DNA of 64,000 nucleotides from Lachnospiraceae bacterium. Lineage in GTDB: Bacteria; Bacillota; Clostridia; Lachnospirales; Lachnospiraceae. Each line of letters opens with the position of its first letter. Within the stretch, counting starts at the first letter, position 1. Below, one piece after another: positions 48,297 through 63,241 of this stretch. The DNA lies in contig JAFLTC010000008.1 of the NCBI GenBank assembly GCA_022510615.1, forward strand, positions 1 to 64,000. Direction: 5' to 3'. The translations under genes and the position numbers were made by a program. Under the pieces are notes generated by a model. That model did no database searches and was not told where the DNA came from. It worked only from the letters and a program-made list of their open reading frames with translations.

Positions 48297-49412
48297 TTAA
48301 TGTTTTTTCTTTTTCTCTTTTTTCTCCAGTGTCTCCTCAAACTGCTCCAGCAGCTTTTTCTGCTCTCTTGTGAGACTGGTCGGCACATCCACAATCAAAT
48401 CCACATAATGGTTTCCCCGCATTTTTTTGTTTCTTAAAGACGGGACACCCTTTCCACGCAGACGCACTCTTGTACCGGTCTGGGTTCCTGCTTTCACATT
48501 GTATGCCACATCTCCGTCTATCGTATGAATGACAACATCTCCGCCTAATACTGCTCTCGGATAGGAAATCCGTACGCTGGAATAAACATCATAATCATGT
48601 CTCTGAAATTCCGGATGCCGTTCTACATATACTTCAACAAGCAAGTCGCCACGAGCACCGCCATTCTTTCCCGGCTCACCCTTTCCTCTCAGCCGGACAC
48701 TCTGTCCATGGTCAATACCAGCCGGTATCGTCGCCTGTAATTTTTCTTTCTTCGTAATATAACCGTTTCCACGACAGTCTGGGCATTTCTCTCTGATAAT
48801 GGTTCCCTTGCCGCCACAGGCTGGACAGGTTGTAACGTTTTGCACCATACCAAACAAGGACTGCTGGGTACGAACGACCTGGCCCTTACCACCACACTGT
48901 CCACATGTGATTGGACTGGTACCCGGTTTAGCACCATTTCCGCCACAGGTCTTACACTCTACCTTAGACGGAATCTCAATTTCCTTTTCCGTACCAAAGC
49001 AGGCTTCCTCAAAAGTAATCTTTACCTGAGTGCGAAGATTGGCTCCTCTCTGTGGAGCGTTCGGGTCAGTTCTTCGTCTTCCACCAAAACCTCCGCCGAA
49101 TAAATCGCCAAAAATATCACCAAAGCTGCCAAAGATATCATCCATGTCCATGCCGGAAAAACCACCGGCACCACCGGCTCCCCCCTCAAATGCCGCATGT
49201 CCAAACTGGTCATACTGGCGGCGTTTGTCCGGGTCACTGAGTACCGCATATGCCTCGGAGGCCTCCTTGAATTTTGCCTCTGCCTCCTTATCTCCCGGAT
49301 TGGTATCCGGATGATATTTTTTGGCAAGGACACGGTATGCTTTTTTTAATGCGGCGTCATCTGCATTTTTGTCTACGCCTAATACCTCATAATAATCTCT
49401 CTTGTCAGCCAT
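48297..49412 (-). CDS. dnaJ: Chaperone protein DnaJ
   Basis: [27 protein letters not shown] region, four CxxCxGxG motifs. Confidence 0.97.
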
Positions 49413-49436
49413 AATTTCCTCCATCTATGCACATAT

Positions 49437-49600
49437 GCCATGCCGACCTCGCACGGAAGTGCGGGGTCGCGGCTATCGCTTTCCCCACCTCCGAAAAGCC
49501 TCGCCATGCCGCTTCCGCCATGCCACTTCCGCCATGCCACTTCCGCCATGCCACTTCCGCCATGCCGACCTCGCGCTACCGCGCTCGGTCGCGGCTATCG
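49437..49600. repeat. Composite repeat: two 42-bp hairpin units flanking 14-bp tandem repeats
   Basis: GCCATGCCGACCTCGC...GCGGCTATCG at 49437-49478 and 49559-49600; four 14-mers GCCATGCC(A/G)CTTCC at 49503-49558. Confidence 0.92.
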
Positions 49601-49675
49601 CCGTATGCCGGACAGCCCCCATATCTTTCCGTGAGCAAGCTCCCGGCAGATATGAGGGCTTCCGTCGCATGGCTC

Positions 49676-51610
<1,935 letters not shown>

Positions 51611-61233: not shown

Positions 61234-63039
61234 ATGCCAATTATCAGCAACACAGTACAGAACAATGGCGGAGGTTCTTCCCCCTCTGTCACATCCCGTT
61301 CACGGGCGTACCGTTCCGGAGGCTCTACCATTCGTCTTCAGGAGGGGCAAACCTTAAAAGGAGTAATCAGTGATATTCACGGGAAAGAAATTACACTGTC
61401 TATGGAAGACGGTTCCTCTTTTACCGGTAAGCTGCCAGAAGCCAGCCAGTATTCCATTGGACAAAAGGCGGCTTTCCAGATAACCGGACTGGATAGTAAT
61501 ACCATATTTATGAAAGCTATGACAGACGCTTATCTGCTTGATATAGAAGATACCATTGAACAAGCACTGGAAGAAGCAAATCTCCCGAAAACCGAGAGAA
61601 ATATAGATGTAGTCCGCAGCCTGTTACAAAACCAGCAGTCCATTAGCAGAGAAAGTATTCTCTCCTCCATCCGGCTCTGCGCCGGCTTTCCGGATGCCGG
61701 AGTGGATTCTATCATTACGATGAGGCGGCTTGGCATGCCGATGACACAGGAATCGGTACAGCAGTTTGAAGACTATCAGAACCAGACACACCAGCTTTTG
61801 TATAAGATGGACACTTTGACAGATTCCATCGGCGACATGCTAAACTCCATCGGCACACAGGTACCACGTCTGGCAAAGGAAGTAGGAACCCAGCTTCTTT
61901 CCATTGCCCTGCAGGGAAATCTTTCTTTAGAGGAAACAGCACTAAAGATTTTTCAGGATGCCGAACTTCAGACGGCACTTACCGGGGAAGATGCCTTAGA
62001 GGACGAGGCGGTTTCTCTGGACGAAAACGGAAATCCCATCCCGGCAGAATCTGCTGAGGCAATAGCTGAGACCACTGCAGAAAATTCAGAGGAGACCACT
62101 ACCGGTGGACCTTTTTCTCGGATGAAGCAGCTTATTTCCAATATTACCGATGGCAGTGCCATTGCCAAAACGGCACTGACCGAATCGGGACTGGTCGATG
62201 ATTTCCGTACTCCTTTTATTCATGAGCAGACCGGATTTATTCTTTCACCGGAAGAACGACAGGAATTTGCAAAATTTTTATCGGATTATCCTCTTCCTGA
62301 CACGATAAAGGAGGGAATTGCCGAGGGAACATTGACGGCAAGAGATTTTCTGACTGCTATTCAGGAAGCTTTCCCGGATATGGACGAGAAACAGGCCGGT
62401 TCACTGCTTGCCTCCAAAGCCTTCCATGCCGTAGTAAAAGGACAGTTCCTCTCCGGATGGACACTTTCTCCGGAGCGTTTAAAACAGGAAAATGCCCTGG
62501 ATGAAGTATATGATAAAATGTCCCGCCAGTTTGAATCCCTATCCAAATTCGGCGAGCAGGTTTTAGGGAAGGATGTCTTTACCCAGATGTCCGATACCGC
62601 CTCCCATATGAATGATAATCTGGACTTTATGAAAACACTAAACCAGACCTTCCAGTATATCCAGCTGCCTCTGAAGCTGCAAAACCAGAATGCACATGGA
62701 GATTTGTATGTGATGACAAGAAAGGAAGCGTTAAAAAAGAATCCTAACAATCTGAAAGTACTTCTTCATCTGGATATGGATCATCTGGGAACACTGGATA
62801 TACAGATTGCCAAGGAAAATACCTCAGTTTCCACCAAGTTTTTTGTGTCTACCAAGGAAACACAAAAACTGTTAGAACGAAACATTGAATTATTATCCGA
62901 TGCCATTAACAATCAGGGCTACGCCTTTACTTCCGAACTGGCATTAAAGGAAAAGGAAGTAGATATCGTAAACGACTTCATCACCGCCGAAGCCCCGGTG
63001 GGGGATATTAAAAGGTACAACTTTGACCTCCGAGCCTAG
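61234..63039 (+). CDS. Flagellar hook-length control FliK-like protein
   Basis: 601 aa; C-terminal LLHLDMDHLGTLDIQIAKENTSVSTKFFV...LSDAINNQGY resembles FliK C-terminal domain. Confidence 0.65.
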   Translation: MPIISNTVQNNGGGSSPSVTSRSRAYRSGGSTIRLQEGQTLKGVISDIHGKEITLSMEDGSSFTGKLPEASQYSIGQKAAFQITGLDSNTIFMKAMTDAYLLDIEDTIEQALEEANLPKTERNIDVVRSLLQNQQSISRESILSSIRLCAGFPDAGVDSIITMRRLGMPMTQESVQQFEDYQNQTHQLLYKMDTLTDSIGDMLNSIGTQVPRLAKEVGTQLLSIALQGNLSLEETALKIFQDAELQTALTGEDALEDEAVSLDENGNPIPAESAEAIAETTAENSEETTTGGPFSRMKQLISNITDGSAIAKTALTESGLVDDFRTPFIHEQTGFILSPEERQEFAKFLSDYPLPDTIKEGIAEGTLTARDFLTAIQEAFPDMDEKQAGSLLASKAFHAVVKGQFLSGWTLSPERLKQENALDEVYDKMSRQFESLSKFGEQVLGKDVFTQMSDTASHMNDNLDFMKTLNQTFQYIQLPLKLQNQNAHGDLYVMTRKEALKKNPNNLKVLLHLDMDHLGTLDIQIAKENTSVSTKFFVSTKETQKLLERNIELLSDAINNQGYAFTSELALKEKEVDIVNDFITAEAPVGDIKRYNFDLRA

Positions 63040-63049
63040 CAACATTAGG

Positions 63050-63102
63050 AAAGAGCGTTCGTCCTTGTGAGCAAACTCACAAGAGGATGAACGCTCTTTT
63101 TT
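63050..63102 (+). terminator. Strong intrinsic terminator
   Basis: AAAGAGCGTTCGTCCTTGTGAG-CAAA-CTCACAAGAGGATGAACGCTCTTTTTT. Confidence 0.9.
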
Positions 63103-63110
63103 AATGTTAT

Positions 63111-63241
63111 TAGGCGAAGCCTACAAGCGAGGCGCCAGCCGAGCTTGGCTAGGCTCGGAGACTTTTCCGAGCTTGGGCTAGGCTCGGAGACTTCCCATGC
63201 CTTGGGCTAGGCTCGGAAGGTTTTTTCCGAGCCTGCCTCGC
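63111..63241. repeat. Hairpin array with repeated CTTGGGCTAGGCTCGGA units
   Basis: Three CTTGG(G)CTAGGCTCGGA copies between GCGAGGC (63127-63133) and GCCTCGC (63235-63241). Confidence 0.85.

Follow-up and report, generated by a model that had tools for sequence, protein, structure and literature searches.

A probable BOX-like structured MITE of a diverged Clostridiales-1 subfamily between dnaK and dnaJ of a Lachnospiraceae bacterium

The gap between dnaK and dnaJ in the window, i.e., the whole stretch of 64,000 nucleotides of Lachnospiraceae DNA that was analysed, carries a structured element which we assign, with a probability of roughly 0.7, to a dispersed, non-coding, BOX-like family of structured MITEs, a diverged subfamily of Clostridiales-1 (RF01699) whose copy at dnaK-dnaJ would be old and vertically inherited and would form a passive intercistronic fold. 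The source genome (G000) is a 2.1-Mb draft, 88% complete, and the nearest named relatives of its dnaJ region are Lachnospiraceae MAGs; the genomes compared are likewise drafts. Both genes lie on the minus strand, and the RNA strand is therefore the reverse complement of the sequence presented (Table 1).

The sequence-only reading had described this gap as a GC-rich spacer with two 42-bp units of identical ends and four 14-bp repeats, and all three descriptions were confirmed. The units lie at 49559-49600 and at the second module of Table 1, the 14-mers GCCATGCC(A/G)CTTCC stand head to tail (TRF: 49502-49566, period 14, 98% matches, score 123), and the GC content of the 250-bp stretch is 0.64 vs 0.42-0.54 in the adjoining genes. 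On the RNA strand the predicted fold reaches -128 kcal/mol vs -103 +/- 4.6 kcal/mol in dinucleotide shuffles (z -5.4, 0/200). The 42-bp unit is, however, only the 3' half (P3-P4-P1') of a larger element, whose CUUG hairpin (P2) and other P1 strand, next to the dnaK stop, had been missed. Along the operon, in the 5' to 3' direction, the order is dnaK stop, GA, P1, P2, AUA, P3, P4, P1', 14-mers, spacer and a further P3-P4-P1'; the element starts at 49673, 2 nt past the dnaK stop codon, and stops 13 nt short of the annotated start of dnaJ, leaving the dnaJ ribosome-binding region free. No match to the repeat element was found in the plasmid collection.

Table 1. Coordinates of the features in the window (E-values of the covariance model R1 are rough, reflecting a short calibration)
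Feature	Position	Strand	Basis or remark
dnaK, upstream cistron	49676..51580	-	ORF; protein ends ...DGDFREL
dnaJ, downstream cistron	48297..49424	-	ORF and dnaJ homologues
Core element P1-P2-P3-P4-P1'	49559..49673	-	RF01699 full length 34.7 bits, E 3.4e-6; R1 135.7 bits (core element sits in R1's own seed)
P1 5' strand, GCCAUGC	49667..49673	-	fold; P1 97% paired in 55 distinct copies
P2 long hairpin, 56 nt, CUUG tetraloop at 49636-49639	49609..49664	-	folds
P3 small hairpin CGGC-GAUA-GCCG, conserved AUA 5' of it	49592..49603	-	folds and conserved columns
P4 hairpin, symmetric GA/GA internal loop (CGACC-GA-GCGC...GCGC-GA-GGUCG)	49566..49591	-	folds; GA/GA pattern judged by eye across individually folded copies
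P1' 3' strand, GCAUGGC	49559..49565	-	fold and P1 pairing over copies
Four 14-bp tandem repeats, each with GGCATGGC; 3' tail-repeat type	49503..49558	-	TRF
Spacer, 14-mers to second module	49479..49502	-	sequence
Second P3-P4-P1' module, duplicated 3' half with other hairpin core	49437..49478	-	repeat search; weak R1 match 49437-49510, 22.9 bits
Second, divergent family copy	63034..63154	+	R1 48.4 bits, E 6.4e-8
Tail repeats 3' of second copy, 29-bp period	63155..63235	+	TRF 63139-63217 and sequence

Used alone, BLASTN would wrongly have led to the conclusion that no family exists, as it returned the dnaK-dnaJ locus only in G000 and, across 39 congeners, the element in G000 and G036 only, at the same place. 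That just two copies occur in the genome, which had been named as an observation that would speak against the earlier interpretation, thus holds for BLASTN and exact pattern searches but not for a search by sequence plus structure. The covariance model R1, built from the three dnaK-dnaJ sequences of G000, G036 and G034, gave 15 matches in the G000 draft, reaching 1e-11 elsewhere in the genome, and one more in the window (the divergent copy of Table 1), i.e., at least 16 copies; copy numbers are lower bounds, because the genome-wide pass missed this last copy. R1 was positive in 27 of the 39 congeners, but among 115 further genomes from this order only six had a match, and just one each. The copies occupy many unrelated loci in either orientation. 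At dnaK-dnaJ, G036 and G034 share the architecture with stems that differ, and the degree to which the 3' half is duplicated varies, with about five units of 62 bp in G036 and two in G034. G034 also has a like-placed counterpart of the second window copy (L230), on a contig that carries dnaK-dnaJ as well.

Covariation, which the sequence-only reading had asked for, is present: among 55 distinct copies, 688 two-sided changes were counted vs 194 +/- 12 after shuffling, they affect 40 of 43 pairs, and 93% of cells are paired vs 36-44% in slid controls. The underlying alignment was fitted to the model, a concern answered in part by the slid controls and by the copies folded singly, which gave the same architecture. 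The CUUG columns are 91-96% conserved, and the AUA before P3 and GGC-G of P3 are conserved as well. When G000 is compared with G034 at dnaK-dnaJ, where the copies are orthologous, both partners differ in 18 pairs and a single partner in none, and six pairs are broken in one copy. Two-sided stem changes also far outnumber one-sided ones at the orthologous pairs L183/L185, L211/L210 and L216/L226, which is unlike usual RNA evolution. The arms of a hairpin may be re-templated from each other. On the sense strand, 79 G-U pairs stand against 35 A-C mismatches, favouring selection on the RNA of that strand; this is moderate evidence only, because the alignment model rewards G-U, and templated repair of the arms is a possible alternative to such selection.

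With respect to known RNA families, the window copy scored 34.7 bits against RF01699 in cmscan, below the curated cut-off of 48 bits, and aligned to model positions 1-166, sharing the order of helices and the orientation and keeping CUUG loop and P1. Many R1 copies gave full-model matches (39 loci scanned), and two of them, L217 in G000 (49.8 bits) and L237 in G003 (51.0 bits), passed the cut-off. Because of these matches, the dnaK-dnaJ element is best classed as a diverged element of the Clostridiales-1 type, though the window copy itself misses the formal threshold. Common to both are the helix order, the long hairpin with CUUG loop, the closing P1 and a last hairpin whose internal loop is rich in purines; the window copy differs in its shorter P3/P4 region, its tail repeats and its ends, GCCATGC vs TGATG in RF01699. 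Rfam lists Clostridiales-1 as type Gene, an sRNA without known function, and it was described as "probably" an RNA, not cis-regulatory, from Clostridiales and the human gut (Weinberg et al., 2010, PMC2864571). Matches of the long hairpins to microRNA families were dismissed as generic long-hairpin matches below the respective cut-offs.

The RF01699 copies of sister species are MITEs. They are near-identical and dispersed (eight full-length copies in G026), contain no ORF and carry a 20-bp inverted terminal repeat, TGATGYYRGGGTCAAAAGGT (131 matches vs none in the reversed control, four genomes). Exact 5-bp, A/T-rich target duplications flank eight of 20 elements vs 1.6 expected by permutation. 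A typical element measures about 204 bp at full length, and the Clostridiales-1 RNA is its interior. Among L155-L176 (G026) and L260-L279, many internally deleted derivatives of the ~204-bp MITE were seen. As for an autonomous partner, no inward-facing TIR pair 0.5-4 kb apart was recognised in the four genomes. In the literature searched, we found neither a description of RF01699 as a transposable or mobile element nor anything relevant on MITEs in Lachnospiraceae.

These hallmarks hold for the RF01699 subfamily and only partly for that of the window. Here, an outer TIR rose above shuffles in eight of 54 copies; the window copy has no outer inverted repeat beyond P1, its score equalling the shuffle threshold, and no target duplication was seen by eye. 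Presence and absence at orthologous sites is evident within the subfamily: L215, L220, L221 and L223 are empty or remnant in relatives, and for several G000 copies the empty or remnant sites were found in G036, G034, G015 or G026. Solo remnants consisting of two P1 arms without interior occur at L246 (G036:C10) and L051 (G022, GAGCCACGCGCATGGCTC behind dnaK). The "mobile hairpin" proposed earlier is thus borne out as to its kind by the dispersed, structure-conserved family, by presence and absence and by the MITE-type sisters.

Insertion sites follow a pattern as well. Copies share a 5' flank before GCC, TTTT-N-CGCG-WAAGC-WAYRA, which by inspection the last codons of dnaK (TTC CGC GAA CTC TAA GA) fit at 13 of 16 positions. 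An intrinsic terminator lies directly upstream of 17 of 53 copies vs 1-4 of 53 at control offsets, several copies sit directly 3' of stop codons, and the upstream neighbours include T-box leaders, a 6S RNA and tRNAs. Directly behind terminators of 6S RNA or T-box leaders are L210, L211, L216, L221, L226, L232, L235 and L192; in the T-box cases the copy separates the riboswitch terminator from the gene that it regulates. Repeats of the 3' end follow 30 of 54 copies as tandem tails and are very rare on the upstream side. The second 42-bp unit and the 14-mers consequently reflect a habit of the family rather than a peculiarity of dnaK-dnaJ.

A transposase supplied in trans would formerly have moved these elements, one of which probably inserted behind the dnaK stop in an ancestor of G000, G036 and G034 and was retained since, its tails presumably growing through tandem duplication. 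The element would be co-transcribed with the operon as an intercistronic fold, most likely a passive one, e.g., a barrier shielding the dnaK mRNA end from 3' exonucleases or a processing site, and probably no terminator; a scan of 49380-49720 revealed no site with GC stem and T run. BOX, BIME and ERIC insertions in operons have been described as acting on decay or processing (PMC3049150). An effect of the element on the DnaK:DnaJ ratio, as proposed in the sequence-only reading, would be plausible. Most element-free congeners have a simple hairpin, (A/G)CTCG(T)(A/G)CC...GG(C/T)(A/G)CGAGT, in the gap (L053-L056, L068, L070-L075), and G034 has both this hairpin and the element.

An alternative option could be a cis-regulatory or processing RNA selected at dnaK-dnaJ to set the DnaK:DnaJ ratio, with the dispersed relatives being secondary. 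The position after the dnaK stop that G000, G036 and G034 share, together with the conserved fold, another CUUG-hairpin element that G016, G008 and G002 carry at a similar place, the presence of some hairpin in the gap of most congeners and the G-U excess on the sense strand would all agree with it. We nonetheless hold it to be unlikely, since the element is also found, in both orientations, at numerous unrelated sites and nothing links it to heat shock. Moreover, most congeners lack the element and have a different, shorter gap, which in G027, G011, G012 and G030 comprises 2-35 nt without any hairpin, so that no essential heat-shock role follows. Very unlikely is an independently transcribed, multicopy small RNA in the sense of the Rfam typing: unpaired positions and orientation are conserved and a TATAAT-like box lies directly upstream of three copies in G014 and G022, but a scan at the window copy yielded no promoter-like site, and most copies are preceded by terminators, 6S RNA, tRNAs, T-box leaders or stop codons and not by promoters.

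The REP/BIME-like nature suggested by the sequence-only reading fits a short, palindromic, dispersed and intergenic repeat. Membership of that class, with movement by a RAYT (Y1) transposase, is highly improbable for a composite structure of 115-200 nt. The unit is an element of four helices and ~115 nt rather than a palindrome of 20-40 bp, and the inverted ends and 5-bp duplications of the sister family set it apart from REPs. No Y1_Tnp domain (PF01797) was matched in G000 (88% complete), G036 or G026 despite abundant copies, and the GTAG/CGTC-type end tag of REP is absent at the hairpin foot in the conserved columns of the copies. That slippage during replication produced a GC-rich tandem repeat by chance, one with neither family nor structure, is hardly credible as an account of the whole: the 14-mers alone look like slippage products, and the tail repeats probably arose in this way, but for the core this account is refuted by the model matches elsewhere in the genome, the covariation and the conserved loop and flank. 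Finally, the folded RNA (or folded single strand) itself could be the unit that spreads or is recognised, making this a structured-RNA mobile element and not a DNA-transposase MITE. We consider this quite unlikely, while it would explain the kept unpaired motifs, the G-U bias, the concerted changes of helix arms, the insertion just behind transcript ends and the successive incomplete copies of the 3' end.

Clostridiales-1, an sRNA without known function in Rfam, proves here to be the interior of a family of mobile elements which includes a sequence-diverged branch overlooked by BLASTN, and this identity makes its function testable. It also calls for caution, as not every covarying family is a regulatory RNA, and a structured MITE can turn into a long-lived component of a core heat-shock operon.

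Among known systems, REP/BIME elements with RAYT (TnpA_REP) resemble the family in being dispersed, intergenic hairpin elements, some of them within operons; the dnaK-dnaJ family differs in its much larger composite fold, in that no Y1 gene was found, and in the TIRs and target duplications of its sister family. The closest system in mode of working appears, by analogy, to be the pneumococcal BOX. Like BOX and RUP, the family is of MITE type, with ends that would pair in the RNA and modules of variable copy number, and is intergenic, in some cases at T-box leaders, and would be co-transcribed (Croucher et al., 2011, PMC3049150). BOX multiplies its middle module (boxB), whereas the dnaK-dnaJ family multiplies its 3' end; the likeness is one of working mode, and a relation in sequence is not to be expected.
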